Shown piece after piece: positions 6,315 to 61,986 of a stretch of DNA of 62,263 nt. Below the pieces are notes generated by a model, which was not told the DNA's origin, did no database searches, and saw only the letters and a program-made list of their open reading frames with translations. The stretch is from a virus. Location: positions 1-62,263 of the IMG/VR virus record IMGVR_UViG_3300008120_000038, one strand, 5' to 3'. The translations under genes and the position numbers were made by a program. Each line of letters begins with the position of its first letter. Position 1 is the first letter of the stretch.

Positions 6315-6432
6315 CTTCATCATTCTCCCAATCAAAAGCCTCTGGTAAACCTCTTAATGCTGTAAGTACATAAGTTATACCAACGGCACCTGCAACGCCT
6401 AAACCAATTAAAACTTTTTGTGCTTTATTCAT
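6307..6432 (-). CDS. 41-residue single-pass membrane protein
   Basis: This small gene begins MNKAQKVLIGLGVAGAVGIT, where residues 6-26 form one hydrophobic segment, and ends in a strongly acidic tail (FDWENDEDE). It is tightly packed: its start overlaps the stop of the upstream HTH gene by ATGA, and its own stop overlaps the next ATG. The overlaps on both sides support it as real. Function is unknown. A holin-like role cannot be excluded, but position in the packaging/regulatory cluster does not argue for it. Confidence 0.7.
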   Translation of the reverse strand: MNKAQKVLIGLGVAGAVGITYVLTALRGLPEAFDWENDEDE

Positions 6433-26281: not shown

Positions 26282-26908
26282 TTATGCCTCTTCTAAACTA
26301 AGTGTTACATTCCAAAGATCATGATTGCTTCCACCTCGGCGAACAACAGAGTAATTAAAACTTGAAAAATAAACTTCAATAACCTGGTTATATTGATTTA
26401 AATGTAAATATGGGTTATCAGTGTTTTCAAAATTTTTATATTTGTCATATGCTAAAAACATCCAAAATGATCCTTTGTGGTTTTCATACCAATCAAGAAG
26501 TTCTGATCCGCCTGCTCCTCCGTCAGCGGTATACGGGGCTGCATCAGTTATTGAATTTTGAAAAGAAAAATTAGGGTCAGAGTCATGTGATCTTGATGGC
26601 AAGTTAGTCCATGAAACAGACATTTGTAGTTTATCTGCAATGTGATATGATCTCATTCTTCCATTAATTGTTCTTTGACGTTGTTCAATTCTTTGTGAAG
26701 TAAAATCCATTTCATTACGATTATGGTCAGATAAAACTAAGAACTGATCAATTAGATTTGGGTTAGCATCTTCTGGGTAGTTTCCACCAACCTCATACCC
26801 AGTTGGAACATACAAACCGTCAACCAGTGTTCCAGGATTCTCAGACCACAAAATACCTTGAGGTCTTTGATATTTCCTTCTTTGAGTCATGTATGCTACT
26901 GTTGCCAT
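26282..26908 (-). CDS. Distal tail protein (putative)
   Basis: The 208-residue product lies directly after the tape measure and before the large tip protein, the canonical place of the Dit-like ring. Beta-rich segments such as LQMSVSWTNLPSRS and VYFSSFNYSVVRRGG with a C-terminal NVTLSLEEA fit this. Assignment is mainly positional. It overlaps the tape measure stop by one base. Confidence 0.65.
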   Translation of the reverse strand: MATVAYMTQRRKYQRPQGILWSENPGTLVDGLYVPTGYEVGGNYPEDANPNLIDQFLVLSDHNRNEMDFTSQRIEQRQRTINGRMRSYHIADKLQMSVSWTNLPSRSHDSDPNFSFQNSITDAAPYTADGGAGGSELLDWYENHKGSFWMFLAYDKYKNFENTDNPYLHLNQYNQVIEVYFSSFNYSVVRRGGSNHDLWNVTLSLEEA

Positions 26909-29900
26909 TACCTTTGTCCTCTAATTCTTTGGTTATCAATGTTTCTAATCTGAGTAATAACTGCCCTTGCAATATCATCTGTACTTGCATTAGTATTAGA
27001 AACGTTAACGTTTATACCATAATTATACACTGAGTTGGAGTTGTTATTTACTGATGCCACTGTTGACTTTCCAGACTGATAGGTTCCATCATTAATTGCC
27101 CTGAGATTATCAACACCAAACTTCTTTACGGCAAAGCGCTTGACAACAAATTCTCCTGGGGTAAGCATAGATGGCACTGTGTCAGTTCCACGAGAATATC
27201 CTCCGTTAGCAAAATACTTAGGTACCATTCCTCCAGATGCCAGGAATGCCATGCTGCTACTTCCGCCAGTTCTTCTATTATAATATGACTCAGTATTTGC
27301 TGCTTTTGCATATGCTGCTGCTCTTTCTGCTGCTGCTTTTTCTGCTGCAAATGCTATTGCCTGTCCAGTATATCGTGCAGATGATAAAACTCCTGCTGCT
27401 CCACCAAGGGCTTCTTTTGCTTCTGCATTATTCAATAGTGCTTCTGCCATTTTATTTGCAATAACTCCAGCAGTAAGAATGCCAGGATCTGCTCCTGTTT
27501 TTATTGAATTTATTAATTTATCAGTATCTTCTGTTACAGTTTTACGTACATCGTCAATGTTTCCTGGATTTCCTCCAGTACTTTGATTTGAAGCATTATT
27601 AGTCGCCGTACCTTTATCAGATGTTTTGGATTTTCCAGTTGCTGCACTTGCTGCTGCTGCAACTTTGACCCATGCTGCTTCAATTCCACCTACAGCAGAA
27701 ATTATTTCATTAATGTCTAAAACTTGTTGGTCAAGTGCATTATTAACAGTATCAACAGCAGTTTTAATTGCTTCATATTCTGCCTGAGTATATCCATTAA
27801 TCTCAAGCAATGCTTGTGCTTTTGCAATTTGTTGATCATGCGCTTCAACAATTTTATTTCTTGCATTAATTTCATCAGTCAATGCTTTTATTTGATTTTC
27901 TTCAATTGATGCAATTTTGTCAACTAGTTGCTGCCTTGTATATGTAATGCCGTTAATTGTAGTTGTAAGTGCTGCAATATCTTTAAGTTTTTGTTTTTCA
28001 AGAATATCTTTTCTTGTATTTAAAGCATCAATAGCCGATGATTCAGATGCTCTTGCTCTGTTTGAACGATACTGTTGTGCTGCCTGGGCTGCTGCTGCAA
28101 TGTCTCCAGAGGTAATTGCTCCTGCCAAATCAAGTTGATCTCTTTGCTGATTTGCAATTTCTTCATTGATTTGAGAAACCTTTTGTAATGCAGATATTTG
28201 CTCATCAATAAGAGTATTCTTTTGTGTATAAGAATCATTGATTGAACTTTCAAGTTTGTCCAACACAGTAAATCCATTATTTAATACGTCAACCTGTTCT
28301 TGCAATGCCTGCTTTGCATTTTCTCTTTCTTGAGTAATAACTTGATATTGCTCAACCGACATTCCATTTGCTTTTCTAAAACTAGCCATTCCCTTAGCAA
28401 TAATTTTTGCATTTTCAGCAGCAAACTTTTGTCCCATTTTATCTGATTCAGATTCTTGCAACTGCTGTAATTCAAATAGTAAGTCCTTATATTCTTTTGC
28501 AGACTTAATCATATTAGGGAATTCATCTTGTATCTTTCCAGTTGCGTCTAGTACATTTGCTGCCCAGTCTGACTTTCCAATAATCTGCAAAATTGTTTCA
28601 AATTCAATTCCAGAATCTTTTAACTTTTTAAATGCATCTATTTGCATTTTAATTTGAGAGTTTTCTTGGAATTGTTTTGCGGTAGTTTCTCTATTTAGTA
28701 AATCTCTTCTTTCTTTATTTATTGAAACAAGAGATTCAAGTTCTTCTTTTGAATAAATAACTCCATTAGCAATATCTCCTACTAAAGATTGATTCTTTAA
28801 TAAATCAAGTGTTTCTGCTGCAGTAAACTTATACTGCTTAGCAACATCAGTTAATCTCCAATATGCATTAACACGATCTCTGATTTCATCATTTGATTTC
28901 TTTTCATCTTCAATATATTGTCCAATAGTATTAGTTTTAAATGCACTATTGATATCAATAAAGTCTTGCTTTAGTCCAGTTATTCTTCCTTCTTTGCCAA
29001 CCTTAAATAATGTTTTTGCCCAAATATTAAATTGTTCTGGGTCCATGTTCATCAAAATTTCACGGAAGTCATCAGATAAGCCACCAACATTGCCAGCAAG
29101 AGCAAGTTGATCAATTTGCTTAATTGCACCTAGTTGTTTGTCAAGAGACTTATTGCTTTTTACGCTTCCCCCGCCTTGTCCAGAAATATCTCCGCTAAGG
29201 AATTTTTGGATTGACTTTAATGGATTTAAAGCATCTATTGATGAATCTTTTACAAGTTTAAGTTTTTGTGCAAGGTCAACTAGCCAGGAGTTATCTTTCT
29301 TGGTTCCTTCACCACCTGCTGCTCCCCCACCTGACTTAGATGTGCTTGGTATAGAGGTTCCAAATATTTCAATCATTGCAATTTCTTCTGCTTTTGTTCT
29401 TATCTGTGGATTATTTTTTGCAAAAGAGTCAAGTGCAGACTTAGTAATTTTTCTTGCTTTTGGATTTGCTTTTCTATATGCAGCAAGAACTTCTCTATTT
29501 ACGACAGTATCAAAAGAGTCTGACTTATTCAATGCTCCTAAAGTTATCATTGCTTGGAATTGTAACTCTTTAGGAAGTTTAGAAAGAGTTGTCCAACTTT
29601 CAATTGCTTTATCAAGAGTTAGATTATTTCCTGGTCCACCAGACTTTTGTTGTAAATCTACTAAAGCCTTAAGGTCAATTTTTCCATTAGGAAAAGCCTT
29701 CTTTAAAGAACCAACTTCTTTTCCAAGTCTCTTTAATGTAGGAATATCATCTTTCTGTGTTTCAAGATCTATTTCAATTCCTATGTAATCTGGAATCTTT
29801 ATAAGTTCTTCAAGTCCAGAATATATATCGTTGGCAGATGCTTCATCTAAATTCTTAATTGCAAAAAGAATATTTTTTTGATTATTTACATTTGGAATAA

Positions 29901-32900
29901 ATTCCAAAATAGTTGCAAGTCTTCCTAAGCCTTCTGTTCCTTGAACATTTAGTATTGTATTAATTGTTCTATCAATATTCTTTTCGCCTGTAGCAAGAAG
30001 TGTTGTTGTTAATGCTTTTGCCTGAGTCACTGTCATTTGATCAGAATTAACTAAAGTCATTATTTCAATTTGTGCTTTTGCAGTTGTTCCTTCTAGTTGT
30101 TTTGTGAGTGATTCTGCTTGAGCCTTTTGGTATGGATCATCCTTAAACTTATTCAATAGTTGCTGCTTAAATGCTCCAGCATATTTATTTTTGCCTTCTT
30201 GTGTTCCTATTTGGTCAATATAGTCTGCAGCAGTTTTTGCTTGTGCTGCTTGGCTTGCTCTTAGTGTTGCAAGCGCTGAAGCCTTTTTGCCTTCAATTCT
30301 TGTAATTTCTACTTCAACTGCTGCTCTTTCTGCTTCTGTTTTTGCAAGTTTTTTCTTTACTTCAAGATTTGCAAGGGCAACATCATATTCTTTTGTTACT
30401 GCATCAATTCCTTGCTGTCCAGCCAATATATTTTGGGTTACTATTCCAGCAAGAGTTCCTGCATTCTTTGCAATAAACTTCTTTTCTTCTCCCTGTTGCC
30501 ACTTTCTTAATAGCCACTCTGCTGTGCTTGTTATGGCAAGTGATCCTGCTGCTGCGATCAGTGCAGGTGATGCTGCTCCTGCTGTTCCTGCGGTTGCTGC
30601 TGCTGTTCCAGCAGTTGCTGCAGCAGTTGCTGCTCTTGCAGTTCTAACTGTATTTAAAATCTTTATAAAACTTGCACTTCCAACAGTTGCTGCCAAACCT
30701 TGCATTTGTGCAGTTTCGCTCCAGTTTATTGGATTACCAAGTATTGCACCGCCTGGTTGTTCATTAGCACGATTTCCTCCAACACCCTTTAACGGATTCA
30801 GTTTAATGTCTGGGCCAATTCCCTTATTTACATCTGTAATTGCTTTTTGATAATTTAAGAATATTGCTTCTTGTAAAGTTTTTCCTTCTGAAATAAGTTT
30901 TACCTGAACAGACAATGGATCTGTTACTAGGTTTTCTCCATTAGGTCCTAGAATTTCTGTTAATTTGCCACGCACATTCATCTCTAGTCTTGCATCTTTT
31001 AGATCTCTTGTTAGTTTAATTGCAATTGATTGAGCCTGTTCTGGGGTTATTACACCCTGTTGTACTGCCGTTGCTAATTGTGAGGCTACTATGCTTGCTG
31101 CTTGAGCAGTTCCAGATTCTCCAAGAGTTTTTATTGTGCTATCAAAATTTGCCTTAAATTGTTTTCCTGCTTCAGAGTTTAAGAAATTAGTTCCATAGTC
31201 CATTGAGACTGGGGTAATTTCCTTTGTTCTTCCTTCTCTTTGTGCTGCTGCTACTTGTCCCACAGAAACCTTTTGAGTATATCGTCCTAAAGCCTCAAGA
31301 TTTTCTGTAGTCATTACCATTGCTTTTGCTTGTTTTTCACCATCAACTAACGACTGTTTAATTTGACTTGATTGCATTTTAAATACTGCTGAAAGACCAA
31401 TCAACGATGTTGCTAAAATTTTAATAGGGCTATTAATTAATGGAAGAAGCATAGGAAGCATAGAAAGCATCATTATCTTATCCATGTTTTGTGCAACACC
31501 ACTATCTGGATTCTTTGCTGCATATGCTCCTGCTACCATAGGAACCATCATGGCTGCCATACCGACACCCATCATTCTTTGACTTCGCTCCATACGCATT
31601 GCCTGTCTTGCATTTGTTCTTTGTGCTGCAGTTAATCTGGCTCCAGTTTCATCTACTTGAGGTACCCTGGAATACCCAGTCATAAATCCTCTAAAACCTC
31701 TTGTCTTGTCAGTTCCAAAATCTTTTGTTGTTTGTGTTGCTGTTTGTCCAAGTTGAGCAACTTTTGGTGTTGTTTTGTTTAACTGTGAAGCAAATCTATC
31801 AATTCTATCCCCAAGTTTTTTAACTCTTGGTTTATCAAAGAATTTGTCAATTGCTCTTCCAACTCTATCATTTGAAGAAGATGTTGGGCTTATTGGGTCT
31901 CCCCAATCGTCAGTATATTTACCGCCTGGCCTTAATGATGCTGGAACACCAAACCCAGGACCATTTTCAAAACCAGGTATTTGGTTTGACATAATTCCAG
32001 ATATAAGACCGCTATATTTTTTACTTTGCTTTGCAGGAATTACCGCTTCACCAGGAGCAAGCATTGCAGGCTGAATGTCTCCCGCTCCCTTTGGACCAGG
32101 AACTGACAAAATTCCATTAGAAAGCATAAGCAATTCATCTTGCCTTGTCTTATACTTTTCATAAAAACCATCTCTAATTCTTTTTTCTAAAGCAAGCATT
32201 CCATACTTATCAAAAGAATTTGGATTCTTTTTTGATCTTAATTCTTGAAGAAATGACTCTGCTTCTCTTCTAGTAGAGATGTGTGTTCTATTTCCATTAT
32301 AAAGATACACAAGATTCATTTGGTTTGTATCTTCAAAAAGATTAGATGCTACATCTTGATCTGCACTTCTTTTATTAGTTTTTGCTGCTTCTCCATGGCT
32401 TAGTGCTGGAGAAAGTCTAAACATTCCTCTATCTTGTTTTTCTGCAAGAATATCTTTAAGTCTTCTTCCTTCAATTTTTGCAGCAGGAGCAGTAAGTTTA
32501 ACTAAATCATCCATAGTCATTGATGGATTATTTCTAATATACTCTTCTTCTTCCTTAAAGTATTTCTGTAATGCTAAGAATTCTTTCTTTTGAATATATC
32601 GTGTTCTGCGTGATTTTGCTGCTGAAGAAACAGCACTAGTTCTTTTTCCACCAAGAGTTGAACTAAAAATTTTACTTGCTGTTAGATCTTGTGCATTTTT
32701 TCTTGAAAGTAAGTCTGTTACATTTCTTAGCAAAATTTCATCACTATTATTTGTGTTCTTTGCTTTGAACTTACCATAGTTTTCATTATATTTTGCTTGG
32801 TCTTTTACAGAATTAAACTTTCTGGTAAACAACAAATCTCCATTAAAGAAAACATCAGTTAACTTTGGATCTTTTGCATTTGGTCTAAAGAAAAACGGTG

Positions 32901-35253
32901 TCATTGACGAAACATTTGATCTTGGCATAACCTGTGCAATATCTCCACCAGGAAGAGGTTTAAACCTAGTAACTCCTAATGCCCTAACAGAACCTGGAGA
33001 AGTTAAATCTATTTTTGGTTCAAAAACTTTTGCTGCAGGACCAAATATTGCAGAACCAGTTACCTTTGGTGGTGTCCAGAATCCTGGTCCACTTGCAAAT
33101 CCTGGAACATTATCACTAATAATTTGAGAAATAAAACCACCATACTTAGCGGTTTGTTTTGCTGGAATGACTGATTCTCCAGGTGACAACATCGCTGGAA
33201 CAATATCTCCTGCTCCTCTTGGTCCTGGAACACTTTCTGTTCCTTTTGCAAATCGTTTTGGAGCAATTCCTCTTGGAACAAATAGCCCACTGTTGTTTGC
33301 TGCAAATGAACTCATTGATGTATTTGCTTGACGATATACTGACATCAATGCACCAAGTGACTGTGCCTCTAATCTATATGCTGCAGATAGTGCTTCATGC
33401 TTTGTATAAAGTGCATTGGTTATAGATGCATTTTCTAGTTCTTCTTGTGATAAGTATTGTGTTTTTAGTGCAACATCCTGTGATCCATATGCAAGTTGCT
33501 GATAACCCTTACGCATTAAGTTAAACAGTTTTAGCATATTTGCAATACCGTTGGCAACAAGACCTACGGTCATCAAGAGAACTGGGCCAATGCCACCTAT
33601 TGCAGTGATCATTAGCCCTGCAAACTTTTTAACACCTTCTGGCAAAGTAGAAAATCTATCAAGAATTTTTTGGAAAAACTCTGCAATAGGAATTACCATT
33701 TTTGCAAACATTTCTCCTATTGGAGCCATGGCAACCTTAAGTCTTTCAGCAGCCTGTGCAAGTTTATTCATTGCAGAATCTGCTTGGGTTTTCTTTTCAC
33801 GTTCTGTAAGTATTGCAAGTTCTTCTGCGCTGGCTGTTGTTAGTTGCAAAACTCTGGCTGCCTGAGATCCTTCTTTTGTAAGGTTATTAAGAAGTGTACT
33901 CATTCTTGCAAATTGATACTTACCAAAAACCTTTTCAACTACTTGCGCTCTCTGCAAGTCTGTCAGTGGCTTTAATGCATTTGCAAAACCAACTACAGTA
34001 TTTCTTAAGTTACCTTGATTTGCTTCAACTATACCCTTAATACTTATTCCATATTGTCCTGCTGCTTTAGTCGCTGCTTTTGTTGGGTTAATTAAAGATG
34101 CAAGACCTGACTTAAGTGCGTTAGCACCTTGTTCTGCAGAAATTCCACCTTCTTTCATTGCAGTCATAAAATATGTTAAGTCTTTAACATCTCCACCAAG
34201 TGCTTTTACGATTGGAGCAACTCTTGGGATTGCCTCTGAAACATCTTCCAAACTTAATACAGTTTGGTTTTCTGTAGCATTCAAGAAGTCAATTGTTTTT
34301 TTAAGTTCTGACCCTCTAATATCAAAAGCATTTTGCAAAGATATTGTTGTATTAAGTGCTTGCTCTTGTGTAATACCACCAAGAACTGCTAGGTCTGTAG
34401 TCTGCCTTACAATGTTTTTAAGATTTTCTCCAGTGTTACCCATTGCTGCTGCATCAGCAGCCATTTTAATTGTATCTGAAACTTTAACTCCATAAGCAGT
34501 ATATTCATTTGCAAGTGCACGAATGTCTTTTAGTGCTTTTGCAGACTCACCACTTTCTGTGTATATATCTCCATATACCTTTTTAAATCTAATAACCTGT
34601 GTTTCAAGTTCTTTAAATGTTTTTATTGCTGATCCAGCAAACATGGCTAATGGTATTGTAAAACCAACCATCAACTGACGACCAGCCCACTGGGTATTCT
34701 TACCAAAGTTTAATAGTTTTGTTGAACCATCATCAATAAGTTTATTTAGTACTTGGTGACGTTGAGTAGCCAACATTAAACTAGTAGTTAAATCATTATA
34801 ATTTAATGTTTTTGGCCTAAACCTCATTGAGTTCATTGCGCCCTGAGCGTCACGACCCAACTGAACATATTGCTGCTGAAGTGTTTTTACACGATTATCT
34901 ATTAACTTACTTACAGTGCTAAATTCGCTACCAAAAAACTTACCGAAAGTTTTTGTAGAAGCCATTCCATATCTGTAATATTCTTTAAGAGATAACTTTC
35001 CCTTATCAAGACTATTAGCAAACTGTTCTGTAGCACTGCTCATCTTCATTGTTGATGCAGTCCAGAGTCCAGTTGCATTAACGTTGTGCATTAATGACTG
35101 GGCATATCTGCCTTGCTCACGAGCAGCAGTTGAGGTGCCAGTAATCATGGCACGGTTAAGGGCAGTTAACTCTTTTTCTAAGGCACGAAGTTGTGCCATG
35201 GCTTGAGTTGTATCAATACCTATAAAAATATTGGTATTAGTATCTCCTGCCAT
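26908..35253 (-). CDS. Tape measure protein
   Basis: The 2781-residue protein sets tail length and is probably ejected during infection. Residues about 200-420 match the conserved tape-measure core (ETQVIRFKKVYGD, DLAVLGGITQEQALN, AMKEGGISAEQGANALKSGL). Hydrophobic segments occur near 540-575 (MITAIGGIGPVLLMTVGLV), 1227-1291 and an Ala-rich stretch near 1535-1575. Three copies of the motif 'VPGP-GAGD-PAML-PGE-VI' occur near 672-731, 1051-1110 and 2686-2730 (last as GTDTVPSMLTPGEFVV). The roughly 320 residues between the first two copies look like an inserted, charged, globular domain. Long coiled coils fill the C-terminal third. Start at 35253 is supported by AGGAGG. Confidence 0.95.
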   Translation of the reverse strand: MAGDTNTNIFIGIDTTQAMAQLRALEKELTALNRAMITGTSTAAREQGRYAQSLMHNVNATGLWTASTMKMSSATEQFANSLDKGKLSLKEYYRYGMASTKTFGKFFGSEFSTVSKLIDNRVKTLQQQYVQLGRDAQGAMNSMRFRPKTLNYNDLTTSLMLATQRHQVLNKLIDDGSTKLLNFGKNTQWAGRQLMVGFTIPLAMFAGSAIKTFKELETQVIRFKKVYGDIYTESGESAKALKDIRALANEYTAYGVKVSDTIKMAADAAAMGNTGENLKNIVRQTTDLAVLGGITQEQALNTTISLQNAFDIRGSELKKTIDFLNATENQTVLSLEDVSEAIPRVAPIVKALGGDVKDLTYFMTAMKEGGISAEQGANALKSGLASLINPTKAATKAAGQYGISIKGIVEANQGNLRNTVVGFANALKPLTDLQRAQVVEKVFGKYQFARMSTLLNNLTKEGSQAARVLQLTTASAEELAILTEREKKTQADSAMNKLAQAAERLKVAMAPIGEMFAKMVIPIAEFFQKILDRFSTLPEGVKKFAGLMITAIGGIGPVLLMTVGLVANGIANMLKLFNLMRKGYQQLAYGSQDVALKTQYLSQEELENASITNALYTKHEALSAAYRLEAQSLGALMSVYRQANTSMSSFAANNSGLFVPRGIAPKRFAKGTESVPGPRGAGDIVPAMLSPGESVIPAKQTAKYGGFISQIISDNVPGFASGPGFWTPPKVTGSAIFGPAAKVFEPKIDLTSPGSVRALGVTRFKPLPGGDIAQVMPRSNVSSMTPFFFRPNAKDPKLTDVFFNGDLLFTRKFNSVKDQAKYNENYGKFKAKNTNNSDEILLRNVTDLLSRKNAQDLTASKIFSSTLGGKRTSAVSSAAKSRRTRYIQKKEFLALQKYFKEEEEYIRNNPSMTMDDLVKLTAPAAKIEGRRLKDILAEKQDRGMFRLSPALSHGEAAKTNKRSADQDVASNLFEDTNQMNLVYLYNGNRTHISTRREAESFLQELRSKKNPNSFDKYGMLALEKRIRDGFYEKYKTRQDELLMLSNGILSVPGPKGAGDIQPAMLAPGEAVIPAKQSKKYSGLISGIMSNQIPGFENGPGFGVPASLRPGGKYTDDWGDPISPTSSSNDRVGRAIDKFFDKPRVKKLGDRIDRFASQLNKTTPKVAQLGQTATQTTKDFGTDKTRGFRGFMTGYSRVPQVDETGARLTAAQRTNARQAMRMERSQRMMGVGMAAMMVPMVAGAYAAKNPDSGVAQNMDKIMMLSMLPMLLPLINSPIKILATSLIGLSAVFKMQSSQIKQSLVDGEKQAKAMVMTTENLEALGRYTQKVSVGQVAAAQREGRTKEITPVSMDYGTNFLNSEAGKQFKANFDSTIKTLGESGTAQAASIVASQLATAVQQGVITPEQAQSIAIKLTRDLKDARLEMNVRGKLTEILGPNGENLVTDPLSVQVKLISEGKTLQEAIFLNYQKAITDVNKGIGPDIKLNPLKGVGGNRANEQPGGAILGNPINWSETAQMQGLAATVGSASFIKILNTVRTARAATAAATAGTAAATAGTAGAASPALIAAAGSLAITSTAEWLLRKWQQGEEKKFIAKNAGTLAGIVTQNILAGQQGIDAVTKEYDVALANLEVKKKLAKTEAERAAVEVEITRIEGKKASALATLRASQAAQAKTAADYIDQIGTQEGKNKYAGAFKQQLLNKFKDDPYQKAQAESLTKQLEGTTAKAQIEIMTLVNSDQMTVTQAKALTTTLLATGEKNIDRTINTILNVQGTEGLGRLATILEFIPNVNNQKNILFAIKNLDEASANDIYSGLEELIKIPDYIGIEIDLETQKDDIPTLKRLGKEVGSLKKAFPNGKIDLKALVDLQQKSGGPGNNLTLDKAIESWTTLSKLPKELQFQAMITLGALNKSDSFDTVVNREVLAAYRKANPKARKITKSALDSFAKNNPQIRTKAEEIAMIEIFGTSIPSTSKSGGGAAGGEGTKKDNSWLVDLAQKLKLVKDSSIDALNPLKSIQKFLSGDISGQGGGSVKSNKSLDKQLGAIKQIDQLALAGNVGGLSDDFREILMNMDPEQFNIWAKTLFKVGKEGRITGLKQDFIDINSAFKTNTIGQYIEDEKKSNDEIRDRVNAYWRLTDVAKQYKFTAAETLDLLKNQSLVGDIANGVIYSKEELESLVSINKERRDLLNRETTAKQFQENSQIKMQIDAFKKLKDSGIEFETILQIIGKSDWAANVLDATGKIQDEFPNMIKSAKEYKDLLFELQQLQESESDKMGQKFAAENAKIIAKGMASFRKANGMSVEQYQVITQERENAKQALQEQVDVLNNGFTVLDKLESSINDSYTQKNTLIDEQISALQKVSQINEEIANQQRDQLDLAGAITSGDIAAAAQAAQQYRSNRARASESSAIDALNTRKDILEKQKLKDIAALTTTINGITYTRQQLVDKIASIEENQIKALTDEINARNKIVEAHDQQIAKAQALLEINGYTQAEYEAIKTAVDTVNNALDQQVLDINEIISAVGGIEAAWVKVAAAASAATGKSKTSDKGTATNNASNQSTGGNPGNIDDVRKTVTEDTDKLINSIKTGADPGILTAGVIANKMAEALLNNAEAKEALGGAAGVLSSARYTGQAIAFAAEKAAAERAAAYAKAANTESYYNRRTGGSSSMAFLASGGMVPKYFANGGYSRGTDTVPSMLTPGEFVVKRFAVKKFGVDNLRAINDGTYQSGKSTVASVNNNSNSVYNYGINVNVSNTNASTDDIARAVITQIRNIDNQRIRGQR

Positions 35254-35275: not shown

Positions 35276-35608
35276 TTATTCGTTTTGCGCTGATGAAAGT
35301 GCAATTAGTGCAGACTCAGTTAGATTAATTCCTGATGCTGCTTCAATGATTTGATATACGGTTGGAAGATCAATAATGTCCTCAAGTTTTGCAATGTCCC
35401 CCGCCACCTCTGGTGCATACTGCTTCATAGCAATTTGTACACACTCAATAAGAAGTGTCATTGACTTATCATTGTTATCTTGTACCTTTGCCAGACCTTC
35501 AAACTTCTTCATAAATTCACGAAGAAGAGAAATTTTTAGTGGTCTGATATTAACCTTAGTACCGTCAATCAAAACGATTGTTTTTTCTTCATTTACGGTA
35601 GTGCTCAT
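35276..35608 (-). CDS. Tail assembly chaperone, short form (G-like)
   Basis: The 110-residue product is paralogous to the first ~100 residues of the gene upstream. Shared blocks are PLKI, LR-FM, ECV-IAM-QY-PE, DLPTVY and A-GI. The usual phage solution makes long and short forms from one locus by frameshifting. Here the reading frame ends 22 nt before the tape measure gene, leaving no room for a frameshifted extension, so this gene makes only the short form. It has its own extended -10 promoter and a strong AGGAGGGG site, consistent with higher expression than the long form. Confidence 0.85.
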   Translation of the reverse strand: MSTTVNEEKTIVLIDGTKVNIRPLKISLLREFMKKFEGLAKVQDNNDKSMTLLIECVQIAMKQYAPEVAGDIAKLEDIIDLPTVYQIIEAASGINLTESALIALSSAQNE

Positions 35609-35638
35609 CTATTTTACCCCTCCTATAAGGTTAAGTTA

Positions 35639-35647
35639 ATTATAGCA
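35639..35647 (-). promoter_or_regulatory. Extended -10 promoter (TGCTATAAT)
   Basis: The motif lies over the last codons of the long chaperone gene (GTT ATG CTA TAA). It would give a leader of about 25 nt containing AGGAGGGG for the short chaperone at 35608. Confidence 0.65.
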
Positions 35648-36356
35648 TAACAGAAGGGTCTTTTAGGTCTTCATAATCTAAGCCTAAGCCAATACCAAAT
35701 CCAGCCTTTTGTGCATTAACTCCCTGCAGTGCCAAAACATCATTGGAATCATCTGTAGCACCTTTAGAAAATACTCTTGCTTTTAGGTCATCCCATTCTT
35801 TTTGTCCCTTTGTTTCTCCAGCCTGGGAATCAATATCTACTCCTTGAATTGCTGCCATAAACTTTTTTTCTTGATAACTTAATTCTCTAATTGCAGACAT
35901 TGTTGCTACTAGTTCAGGCATTGATAAATTTCTTTCTAATTGGTCATAATCTTTCCAAATTCCCAACGTAAAAATTTCAGACTCAAGTTTAGCAAGATCT
36001 AGGTCTTTCCATGATGTTTTTTCATCTGACTTTATTGCCTGATCTTTTACATTTTCTTCTGAATTACTACTTACTTCTATTCCACCAGCAATATCTAAAA
36101 CTTTATATACAGTTGGAAGGTCCATGTTGTCTTCAATAAGTTCTGTTGATGTTGATATTTCTGGGCAATACTGCTCCATTGCTATTCTTACGCATTCAAC
36201 CAAAATAGATATGGCTTCATCTTCTGTACTTGACTCATTAACTTTATGGAAACAATCCATAAAATCTCTTAGGTATTTTATTTTTAATGGACCAAGTTCA
36301 AGTTCTCTGCCATTAATTAACTTTATTTTTTGTACATTATATATTCTAGTAGCCAT
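35640..36356 (-). CDS. Tail assembly chaperone, long form (GT-like, unframeshifted)
   Basis: The product is about 238 residues. Residues 1-100 are the G-like domain shared with the following gene. A charged linker leads to a T-like domain with FTLGIWKDYDQLERNLSMPE and LVATMSAIRELSYQEKKFM, the typical C-terminal part of actinophage chaperones normally reached by frameshifting. Here both parts are in one uninterrupted frame. The start is set at ATG 36356 (MATRIYN), not the in-frame start at 36386, because the extended -10 (36363-36371) lies between them and puts this ATG exactly 6 nt after the -10, predicting a leaderless message. Confidence 0.85.
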   Translation of the reverse strand: MATRIYNVQKIKLINGRELELGPLKIKYLRDFMDCFHKVNESSTEDEAISILVECVRIAMEQYCPEISTSTELIEDNMDLPTVYKVLDIAGGIEVSSNSEENVKDQAIKSDEKTSWKDLDLAKLESEIFTLGIWKDYDQLERNLSMPELVATMSAIRELSYQEKKFMAAIQGVDIDSQAGETKGQKEWDDLKARVFSKGATDDSNDVLALQGVNAQKAGFGIGLGLDYEDLKDPSVML

Positions 36357-36362
36357 TATTTC

Positions 36363-36371
36363 ATTATACCA
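36363..36371 (-). promoter_or_regulatory. Extended -10 promoter (TGGTATAAT), predicted leaderless start
   Basis: TGGTATAAT on the minus strand is followed by exactly 6 nt and the ATG at 36356. Transcription at the usual 6-7 nt distance would begin at or next to the A of the start codon. It follows immediately after a terminator. Confidence 0.75.
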
Positions 36372-36402
36372 AACAACAAAGCCCACCTCCGAAGAGATGG
36401 GC
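36371..36402 (-). terminator. Rho-independent terminator with UUCG loop after tail tube gene
   Basis: GCCCATCTC and GAGGTGGGC pair over 9 bp (one G-U) around a TTCG tetraloop (36390-36393), followed on the minus strand by TTTGTTGTTT. It ends the highly expressed tail tube message 20 nt after its stop. Confidence 0.88.
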
Positions 36403-36422
36403 CTGTCGTATAATCTATTAAA

Positions 36423-37061
36423 TTATGAAGCAGGTGTCCAGGTACGATCTACGATCTTACCATATGAACCTGATGTGTCTTCTGGAAGAAGACGGAATGA
36501 AACCTCAAACATAGATGCTTCGTCACGCTTTGCTGATACTGTAACATTTTCAATAGAAAGTGCACGGTATGCTGTGTAAACACGCTCTACGTAAGAAGAA
36601 TCTACGCAGTCTCCTGTTCCTGGGCCTACTGCAACGATAGCACGTTCAACTGGACATTCGCCGATATCTCCTGCGGAAAGATTCAATGCTCTTCCGTTTG
36701 AAGTTGACTTTGTTCCTGAAAGTTCGTCATCGTTATAAGCCAAAGAAAGAAGAAGGTTTTCTAGTGTTGCTTCAGCAAAAGCAGTAGCAAGGTTTACCTG
36801 CATACCCTGCTTGTAAAGTTTAGCAACGTCAAGAATCTGGTCAACTCTAACTTCACCGAAGTCAGGTTGGAACTGCAGTTCAAGACCATTCATTGTGTAA
36901 CCAACATTGGTGTAATCAGCATCATTTGTAAGTGTATCTCTGTAAGTCTTTGAAGACTCAAAAGCAGTTACGTCTGCTGGTGTTAGTGTTGTGTCAGCAA
37001 TAAATACTGCTGCTGCACCAACGATAATGTTAGTTGATGTACCACGACTATAGTTAGCCAT
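36423..37061 (-). CDS. Major tail tube protein
   Basis: The 212-residue product has the size and position of the tube protein: after the tail terminator and before the chaperones and tape measure. Beta-rich segments (ADYTNVGYTMNGLELQFQ, MFEVSFRLLPED) and a helix with LYKQGMQVNLATAFAEATLE fit the tube fold. It is a single transcription unit with a promoter upstream and a strong terminator downstream, as expected for an abundant protein. Confidence 0.85.
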   Translation of the reverse strand: MANYSRGTSTNIIVGAAAVFIADTTLTPADVTAFESSKTYRDTLTNDADYTNVGYTMNGLELQFQPDFGEVRVDQILDVAKLYKQGMQVNLATAFAEATLENLLLSLAYNDDELSGTKSTSNGRALNLSAGDIGECPVERAIVAVGPGTGDCVDSSYVERVYTAYRALSIENVTVSAKRDEASMFEVSFRLLPEDTSGSYGKIVDRTWTPAS

Positions 37062-40223: not shown

Positions 40224-40463
40224 TTAGCGCCGTCTTCTTCCTTTACCAAAATTATTTTGTAGTGGTAAACGAATTCCATTTGGTGTTCCAGATGGATTTA
40301 CAGCATTTGGTCCAGATGTATCTCCAAGCGTTGCCCCAGATGTTCCCAAAGTATTAACTTGCAAACCGCTTGGACCCATAATAATAACACCAGGGGTTCC
40401 TAAAGATTGAATAACTCCTTCAGCAACGTGTGTGTGATTCTGTGGTGTTCCTGGATATGACAT
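40224..40463 (-). CDS. Capsid N-terminal-arm paralog (79 residues)
   Basis: This small Gly/Pro/Thr-rich protein matches the first ~70 residues of the major capsid protein encoded just upstream: YPGT near the start, H-x-H then EG, and NPSGTPNGIRLPLQ against NPVGTPGGILLPEQ. It then ends in a basic tail (GKGRRRR) instead of the capsid fold. It has its own ribosome-binding site (AGGAG) and follows a hairpin after the capsid gene. It may be a capsid-binding decoration or assembly factor that uses the same contact as the capsid arm. The function is inferred from the paralogy only. Confidence 0.75.
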   Translation of the reverse strand: MSYPGTPQNHTHVAEGVIQSLGTPGVIIMGPSGLQVNTLGTSGATLGDTSGPNAVNPSGTPNGIRLPLQNNFGKGRRRR

Positions 40464-40484
40464 ATTGCTCCTAAAATTGAATAA

Positions 40485-40510
40485 GGAGGGTAGTTTTTAC
40501 GCTACCCTCC
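40485..40510 (-). terminator. Strong hairpin after capsid gene (weak terminator or attenuator)
   Basis: GGAGGGTAG and CTACCCTCC make a perfect 9-bp stem with an 8-nt A-rich loop, 20 nt after the capsid stop. The following minus-strand sequence (TTATTCAATTTT) is U-rich but interrupted, so read-through or mRNA-end stabilisation is likely. Confidence 0.7.
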
Positions 40511-40529
40511 CTATAAATTGTTTCAGCGA

Positions 40530-41642
40530 TTATGAGTTTGCTGCTGCTGTTGCGAATGCAACTGCATCAAGTTCTTCCCACTGAATACCAAAGCGGACGA
40601 ATACTGTGTACTCAATTGTGTCCTTCTTTGGTTGGTAGAAACGGTTTACAGTGATATCACGTTGGAATCCCCATACACGGTTCTGAGGGAATGTAAGATC
40701 TACATAACCTGCAGGGTAGTAAGGAACTTCCTGAACTTCAACACCGAGAACACGAGTTGTACGTGCTCCACCAAATGTCTGAGCATTGCCGTCATAGTAT
40801 GACTGACGCATTGCTTCTGTTCCACCAAGACGTGGTGTAAATGCTTCTGCAATTGCATCAGCAAGTGTACCGTTGTTCTTGACGATTCCCTGGAATGCAT
40901 CTGTACCAGCATAGAACTTAAGATTGTTCTTGATTGCACGATACTTACGTGGCATTGCAAGGATGATATCCTGAAGTACTGGTGTTGTCCAGTTATTATC
41001 AGTAACTGTTACGATAGACTCGTGTGAGTCTCCATCCTGTACCTTTGAAACAAAACCTTCCATAATGTTAAGGAAAGCGTCTCCGCCTGCTCCAGTACCA
41101 TTAATTGCAAGATCTTCAATGTCGTTTGCAAAAGCGTTAGTCATCAAACGAACAAGATGGTCTTCAAGAGCGCCACCTTCTACGTTATCTTCTAGTGCTT
41201 CTGTTGATACTTCCCAGTCAAGACGAATCTTCTTAGTAGTCAATTCAACCTTTGAGAAAGTTGCGCCTGCATTTGTGAATGTAGGGTCTGCTTGTGCTGC
41301 TGCACGAATTACACGCTCACCAACGTTAACTTTTTCAAGTTCCATTGTGTTGGCTCTCATAGTAACTCTACGTCCATCCTTAGCGAGAACTGTAGCATCC
41401 CACACATAATCAATGAAGCGACGTGCTTGTTCAGGCAATAGGATACCACCTGGTGTTCCAACTGGGTTTACACCAAGTTGAGCATCACCGTAGTTTGCAC
41501 CAGCAATGTTACCCATAACGCCGACACGACCATTAACAATGGCTGCTGCGTCTGCGGTAGAACCAGATGCTACTGCGCCTTCACCTGTGTGGCCATGGCC
41601 TTCAGTTGTACCTGGATAGTTTTTTACGATATCTTCTGACAT
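40530..41642 (-). CDS. Major capsid protein (HK97 fold)
   Basis: The 370-residue protein has an N-terminal flexible Gly/Ala-rich arm of about 75 residues, then a capsid core with FIDYVWDATVLAKDGRRV, RLDWEVSTEALEDN, DIEDLAINGTG and a C-terminal VWGFQRDITVNRFY...YTVFVRFGIQWEE, typical of actinophage capsids. ATG at 41642 is chosen because AGGAGG lies 8 nt upstream; the GTG three codons earlier overlaps the ribosome-binding site. It follows the protease/scaffold gene. Confidence 0.92.
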   Translation of the reverse strand: MSEDIVKNYPGTTEGHGHTGEGAVASGSTADAAAIVNGRVGVMGNIAGANYGDAQLGVNPVGTPGGILLPEQARRFIDYVWDATVLAKDGRRVTMRANTMELEKVNVGERVIRAAAQADPTFTNAGATFSKVELTTKKIRLDWEVSTEALEDNVEGGALEDHLVRLMTNAFANDIEDLAINGTGAGGDAFLNIMEGFVSKVQDGDSHESIVTVTDNNWTTPVLQDIILAMPRKYRAIKNNLKFYAGTDAFQGIVKNNGTLADAIAEAFTPRLGGTEAMRQSYYDGNAQTFGGARTTRVLGVEVQEVPYYPAGYVDLTFPQNRVWGFQRDITVNRFYQPKKDTIEYTVFVRFGIQWEELDAVAFATAAANS

Positions 41643-41669
41643 ATTGTTCACCTCCTAGTGATTTTTATG

Positions 41670-61977: not shown

Positions 61978-61986
61978 ATTATACCA
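61978..61986 (-). promoter_or_regulatory. Extended -10 promoter (TGGTATAAT), predicted leaderless start
   Basis: TGGTATAAT, then 7 nt, then ATG 61970. A large inverted repeat begins 11 nt upstream of it, over the place a -35 would occupy. Confidence 0.75.

Follow-up and report, generated by a model that had tools for sequence, protein, structure and literature searches.

A tail assembly chaperone pair of aquatic phages that appears to be encoded by two paralogous genes in place of a frameshift

Tail assembly chaperones of the lambda type (gpG/gpGT, as well as 17.5/17.5* of SPP1 and the pair of TP901-1) are encoded in front of the tape measure gene and occur as a short and a long form with a common N-terminal domain, the long form carrying an additional C-terminal T domain. 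In lambda and SPP1, both forms are made from one gene by low-level −1 frameshifting. For lambda, PMC5009743 gives a ratio of ~30:1 set via the frameshift and states that G coats the tape measure protein and that the major tail protein is recruited by a few GT molecules via T. A TP901-1 mutant with only a permanent GT fusion forms particles that look normal and are non-infectious (PMC4493119), and therefore a separate G should be required in phages whose GT is fused. In PMC10885494, the authors of PRFect point to 342 SEA-PHAGES genomes in which two chaperone genes are present without an annotated frameshift; they suggest incomplete annotation for many of these. The open-licence literature, as far as its texts were accessible, was found to contain no description of a full-length GT gene accompanied by a paralogous G gene, subscription papers being outside the scope of the search. 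The accessible portions of PMC5679792, PMC10885494, PMC5009743, PMC6316719, PMC4493119, PMC11749239, PMC7975873 and PMC8026635 contain no such pair, and those of the host-side papers PMC10202952 and PMC6802176 name none.

The DNA analysed here is a virus record of 62,263 bases, further referred to as the window. Among the matches listed, its capsid protein is nearest to those of Streptomyces phages (43–44% over 79% of the query), and so is its terminase (53% over 100%). All six Streptomyces phage records examined belong to Stanwilliamsviridae by their taxonomy lines. In this family (Coruscant, Jay2Jay, Moab, Yaboi, BillNye, Wakanda) the chaperone locus has the same gene order as in the window, and its G and T are homologous to the pair studied here at ~34–40% identity. 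However, they are encoded in one locus, where T occupies the −1 frame, unlike the two genes of the window. A joined tail assembly chaperone is annotated in Yaboi (joined CDS) and in Rhodococcus phage Francesca. No second G was detected in Streptomyces phages by tblastn at the E threshold of 0.01 (132 and 127 records), each record having one matching place.

The order on the minus strand of the window is major tail protein, hairpin, 238-aa ORF, 110-aa ORF and tape measure protein. The major tail (tube) protein gene (36423..37061, minus strand) matches phrog_2175 (E=2e-34), and in Streptomyces phages Coruscant, Jay2Jay, Moab, Wakanda and BillNye the genes at this position are annotated as "major tail protein" or "protein with Ig domain". 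The 238-aa ORF (35640..36356, minus strand) is an uninterrupted gene for a GT-type tail assembly chaperone; its length is counted from a conserved ATG, and a second in-frame start, GTG, lies 10 codons upstream. The 110-aa ORF (35276..35608, minus strand) encodes a G-only paralog. The tape measure protein gene (26908..35253, minus strand, 2781 aa) stands in the same gene order as in annotated relatives, and 22 nt separate the G stop from its start at 35253. A preliminary description of this locus had interpreted the two ORFs as paralogous genes replacing a frameshift, the short one ending just before the tape measure gene; the coordinates and frames that it gave for both ORFs, as well as this placement, proved to be correct. 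Both genes sit between the major tail protein and tape measure genes, as G/GT-type chaperones do.

The long and the short protein have 40 identities over 102 aa (39%, E=7e-25 in a single BLASTP comparison). The N-termini of both match the PHROG profile phrog_10504 (3.8e-21 and 2.4e-20), and the C-terminus of the long protein matches a separate family, phrog_10474 (9e-14); such a match to two families is expected for a G+T fusion. The phrog_10504 match covers residues 1–101 of the long protein, whose G domain was placed at approximately residues 1–98 (36063..36356, minus strand). The T domain occupies approximately residues 113–238 (35643..36020, minus strand; phrog_10474 match at 133–226) and can be aligned to the T that Streptomyces and Rhodococcus phages encode in the −1 frame. 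Hence the two forms share the N-terminal G domain, and the longer one adds a T domain that has homologues in known G/T loci. With Pfam, both proteins yield only matches under the curated cut-offs. The blocks PLKI, ECVxIAMxQYxPE and DLPTVY, previously named as common to both proteins, are indeed present in each. The similarity of the domains is clear from the pairwise comparison, and a lack of it, which would have refuted the preliminary description, is not observed.

The AlphaFold2 models of these proteins have pLDDT of 70 for the short G and 71 for GT, reaching ~85 for residues 11–90 of the latter; in the GT model the G domain is composed of two strands followed by helices. The top VIA row for the G model is the HK97 tail assembly chaperone 2ob9_B (Z 5.0, rmsd 4.9, 85 aligned residues). 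This comparison covered 298 Foldseek candidates (PDB chains), and Z under 8 can reflect a common arrangement according to the tool; the likeness of the predicted G structure to 2ob9_B is thus suggestive only. For the GT model, the first two matches in a viral library are unnamed (E 1.1e-13 and 1.7e-7), and the third (E 5.5e-4) carries the name of a tail assembly chaperone. A Foldseek search of the same model against PDB gave no match at E<=1e-3.

Three of the scans that collected relatives from IMG/VR used proteins of this phage, or an alignment headed by these, as queries; the other two used a mixed T alignment and the G of a Streptomyces phage. Three of these scans, and one of those with the G of sister phages (see below), contributed their best 80 loci each, and loci overlap between scans. 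In total, 309 sequences were profile-scanned: 300 IMG/VR loci, some of them on the same contig, eight named phage regions and the window. Among the matches listed, an arrangement with GT in one frame and a separate G, further called split, is present in 255 of the 309 sequences, and one G/T locus in 46, all 46 of which have T in −1. The remaining eight are accounted for by contig ends (five), frame breaks (two, L046 and L204) and a weak hit (one). Only GT was found in L003, L044, L045, L047 and L260, all of which end within ~31 nt of the end of the available sequence; in L137 the G match fell below the cut-off of the profile scan. Since the relatives were retrieved with this phage's proteins, the G of a Streptomyces phage, mixed alignments and the G of sister phages, the proportions of split and one-locus arrangements are not population frequencies. 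The split set consists of metagenome contigs, and no cultured split-type phage was identified. A search for relatives in bacterial genomes produced 55 pattern matches, none of which was confirmed, and therefore bacterial genomes provide no host link. That the GT and G gene pair holds across a clade is confirmed by this survey.

After removal of identical nucleotide sequences, 181 split and 40 one-locus sequences remained among the matches listed; at 90% identity they are represented by 114 and 32 loci, respectively, and one split representative has too little sequence upstream of GT (n=113 for that region). These numbers make it scarcely credible that the pair is a plain gene duplication or an assembly artefact without biological meaning. 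Tandem duplicates do exist in phage genomes, and a few loci have frame breaks (L046, L204, L371), but an explanation of this kind has to accommodate 181 unique sequences and 114 representatives, conserved expression signals (see below) and low dN/dS for both genes, although only one pair, the window and L005, was compared: 0.075/0.936 for GT and 0.045/0.382 for G, a sign of purifying selection. The three loci with frame breaks were also considered individually. L046 was rejected as an intermediate with a frameshifted GT: what breaks its GT is a near-exact repeat of ~32 nt (6360–6430) within the T domain rather than a slippery site. This repeat may be a real feature or an assembly artefact. The break in L371, also considered as an intermediate, is within the G domain and was read as an indel, and L204, with a broken G, is one of 80 loci.

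Slippery sites in split genes were sought in 52 representatives as in-frame XXXYYYZ heptamers, with 100 synonymous shuffles as the control. In the GT linker they occur in 12/52 representatives (shuffle mean 8.1, range 2–14), and in the last 25 codons of G in 1/52 (mean 1.9, range 0–6); that is, neither the linker nor the G tail of these 52 representatives has the conserved slippery site that would have contradicted the two-gene interpretation. Past the G stop, the −1 and +1 frames close after a median of 6 and 3.5 codons, respectively, and the −1 frame stays open for at least 40 codons in 1/52. The split pair thereby differs from the lambda-type frameshift module, which requires a slippery site and a single locus that encodes G and T in different frames: here GT is one frame. 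It remains formally conceivable that frameshifting persists at a non-canonical site in the GT linker, yielding an extra G-like product, with the short gene as an accessory. The 12 linkers with some heptamer could be cited for this explanation, as could the nine of 32 one-locus representatives that have no canonical heptamer. However, 12 is within the shuffle range, the positions and letters of the sites differ, the window is not among the 12, and the linker varies in both length and sequence, so that we regard this explanation as very unlikely.

An in-frame XXXYYYZ lies within the overlap in 23/32 one-locus representatives; it is missing from nine, namely L130 (Coruscant), L131 (Jay2Jay), L133 (Yaboi) and six IMG/VR loci. 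In L130, L131, L133, L219, L221 and L227, CCCGGAA replaces the CCCAAAT of others, with T in −1; this reading covers six of the nine. Scans with the G of sister phages gave 100 loci (among the matches listed), comprising 67 one-locus, 30 split, two G-only (contig ends) and one with a frame break. From the one-locus loci of these scans with a located start, again among the matches listed, 37 unique sequences were obtained (28 at 90% identity), and 37/37 have an in-frame canonical heptamer with T in −1: GGGAAAC in 28, CCCAAAC in four, CCCAAAT in four and GGGAAAT in one. That these sites really shift is inferred from their form. The sister phages are aquatic as well (L273, L290, L255 and L312 are examples): their G has ~63% mean identity to the short G, their T domain is close to that of GT, and a Shine-Dalgarno sequence precedes G. 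The split pair differs from them in lacking the GGGAAAC, GGGAAAT or CCCAAAY heptamer and the overlapping T frame, and, unlike the window, the sisters have no separate GT gene at the locus. A one-locus G in L285 (3250–3510) has ~30 residues fewer than the otherwise near-identical L283.

The two genes of the split pair are preceded by different expression signals. A hairpin resembling an intrinsic terminator (AGGCCCATCTC-TTCG-GAGGTGGGCTT, then TGTTGTTT; 36379..36404, minus strand) occupies the intergenic region between the major tail protein gene and GT, and a 51-nt stretch there folds at −23.9 kcal/mol (z −5.5). A perfect stem of at least 8 with a T tail occurs upstream of GT in 109/113 split representatives vs 2.3% in shuffles. 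By the same criterion it occurs before the split G in 3/114 and before the one-locus G in 15/32 (shuffles 1.2–2.5%). The GT gene has a promoter-like element of the extended −10 type, TGGTATAAT (36363..36371, minus strand), at a distance of 6 nt from its ATG, a leaderless-type arrangement. A second such element, TGCTATAAT (35639..35647, minus strand), overlaps the GT stop 30 nt before the ATG of G and is followed by the Shine-Dalgarno sequence AGGAGGGG (35617..35624, minus strand). A two-hexamer sigma-70 promoter scan did not rise above shuffles (37 vs 36.3), and the analysis of extended −10 elements was used instead, with the strict rule of TGN plus at least five of six letters of TATAAT and a looser rule of four of six. 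The strict element is found upstream of GT in 103/113 representatives (shuffle mean 2.7, maximum 8) at a median of 7 nt from the ATG, and the looser one in 110/113 (shuffle mean 9.3); upstream of the split G the strict element is found in 114/114 (mean 3.6, maximum 7) at a median of 26 nt. For the one-locus G the corresponding numbers are 21/32 (strict) and 31/32 (looser).

Duplex energies to the anti-Shine-Dalgarno sequence average −3.1 kcal/mol for GT, where 3/113 reach −6, and −10.6 kcal/mol for the split G, GT being the weaker in 113/113; the mean for the one-locus G is −9.6 kcal/mol. The leaderless picture thus does not hold for every GT: the strict −10 element is missing from 10/113 and the looser one from 3/113, and in L046 GGGGAG precedes the GT ATG. 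Codon adaptation, with pooled major tail protein genes as the reference, equals 0.692 for the major tail protein, 0.616 for G and 0.482 for GT. It is higher in G than in GT in 114/114 representatives, and than in the G part of GT in 112/114. Hence the leaderless-type start of the long gene, and the promoter-like element and strong Shine-Dalgarno sequence of the short one, which had been noticed in the single sequence, are conserved in relatives far beyond shuffles. The −10 element is very close to the GT ATG, and therefore transcripts would begin at or next to the AUG; a leaderless GT transcript is an inference without start-site data. Similarly, GT being the scarce form is inferred without protein data, and so is, without transcript or protein data, the ratio of G to GT. 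Leaderless mRNAs can be well translated in Actinobacteria, and therefore GT is not necessarily low for want of a Shine-Dalgarno sequence. Its lower codon adaptation could result from weaker selection rather than tuning.

Leaderless-type starts are not special to GT, since several other window genes have them. The extended −10 motif TGNTATAAT precedes many genes on the minus strand, several at leaderless-type spacing (minus-strand examples are at 61986, 56026, 55362, 48541, 45060, 43002, 40220, 36371, 35647 and 2001). Extended −10 matches with at least five of six letters were called intergenic in 19/37 cases on the minus strand and 4/17 on the plus strand. Such a distribution suggests one putative promoter per gene or small gene group in the window. 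The same structural region contains a second short and long pair with shared sequence. A 79-aa ORF (40224–40463, minus strand) just downstream of the major capsid protein gene (40530–41651, minus strand) matches the N-terminus of the capsid protein (29/70 identical, E 3e-9, single comparison), and a terminator-like hairpin (40481–40514) lies between the two.

Phylogenetic trees were built for the G domain (71 rows, 97 columns) and the T domain (51 rows, 120 columns) with 20–30 representatives per class; with 97–120 columns many forks stay open, and the bootstrap of the G-domain tree is not fully settled. The short G forms one clade (100/100) nested in the clade of frameshifting aquatic G (99/96). 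The G domain of GT also forms one clade (99/96), located outside the clade of short and frameshifting G; an earlier tree with fewer frameshift rows had the same grouping. In the T tree, the T domains of GT are placed among the aquatic frameshift T domains, with one exception: the T of the frameshift locus L251, which has a long branch, groups within those of GT. A single recent tandem duplication yielding both copies is not directly recovered, since the G domain of GT is outside the clade of short and frameshifting G. A tree constrained to group this domain with the short G is not rejected by the AU test (p 0.187, constrained tree lower by 8.8 log units; with fewer frameshift rows, p 0.61, constrained tree higher by 4.7). 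Mean identity is 0.50 within the G domains of GT, 0.72 within the short G and 0.43 between them. These data fit a single change from a frameshift to two genes followed by fast change of the G domain of GT. It is not excluded that the duplication is older and GT was lost in the frameshift lines, or that GT was acquired from another phage, and the exact order of duplication events can only be inferred.

The same divergence bears on whether the two proteins act together. The short paralog might be a specialized second chaperone rather than a dose-setting G, with GT doing another job, no mixed complex and little importance of the ratio; for example, GT could start tail-tube polymerization and the short protein coat the tape measure. 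The far larger divergence of the G domain of GT (0.50 vs 0.72) and its separate tree position speak for such a division of labour. However, neither 39-row alignment (GT or G) shows variation at P23, L24, K25, F36, C55/56, P65/66 and Y84/85, and a dosage-free role does not require the strong and consistent asymmetry of expression signals; we consider this division of labour unlikely.

The interpretation of the locus as two paralogous genes in place of a frameshift is supported, and a large aquatic phage group appears to make the long and short chaperone forms from two genes with strongly differing expression signals, where its nearest relatives make them from one. The part of the argument that rests on sequences comprises the paralogy, the gene order, the absence of a conserved slippery site, the asymmetric signals, the frameshift sites of sister loci and the nested position of the short G. 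The explanation that we find quite probable is that a duplicated frameshift locus was converted into a fixed GT and a T-less G, with the ratio no longer depending on the frameshift but on promoter, initiation mode and codon use. The phage would be a tailed, distant relative of Stanwilliamsviridae, and the pair would encode the chaperones GT (long, G+T) and G (short). An ancestral single locus with programmed −1 frameshifting, as in the sisters and Stanwilliamsviridae, would have been duplicated. The upstream copy may then have turned into a GT gene that is always in frame, without leader or Shine-Dalgarno sequence, so that the GT promoter would be directly at the ATG, behind the terminator. 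The downstream copy would have lost T and the slippery site and kept the promoter, the leader, the strong Shine-Dalgarno sequence and well-adapted codons. Promoter, initiation mode and codon use would then give the G:GT ratio, with GT scarce; G would coat the tape measure, and a few GT molecules would recruit the major tail protein through T, as in lambda. By analogy with lambda (PMC5009743), G is inferred to bind the tape measure and T the tail tube, both being absent from the virion. The pair is homologous to G/GT and is inferred to work like it, but fails the frameshift feature of the module; that it functionally replaces gpG/gpGT is inferred and has not been shown.

A further-reaching proposal is that the aquatic clade has fully abandoned chaperone frameshifting and hard-wired the ratio by giving each gene its own promoter and its own mode of initiation (leaderless for GT, Shine-Dalgarno-dependent for G), the G domain of GT having become a distinct, specialized module because it was freed from sharing one coding sequence. 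We advance it only tentatively, as plausible but just short of what we would favor. If true, the clade would be a natural experiment on the purpose of recoding. It suggests an evolutionary route to dispensing with the frameshift, in which a separate G is kept, and a comparison of sister phages with and without the frameshift asks whether the ratio alone matters or the single shared coding sequence does too. For annotators, it means that a frameshift should not be forced on every pair of tail chaperone genes.
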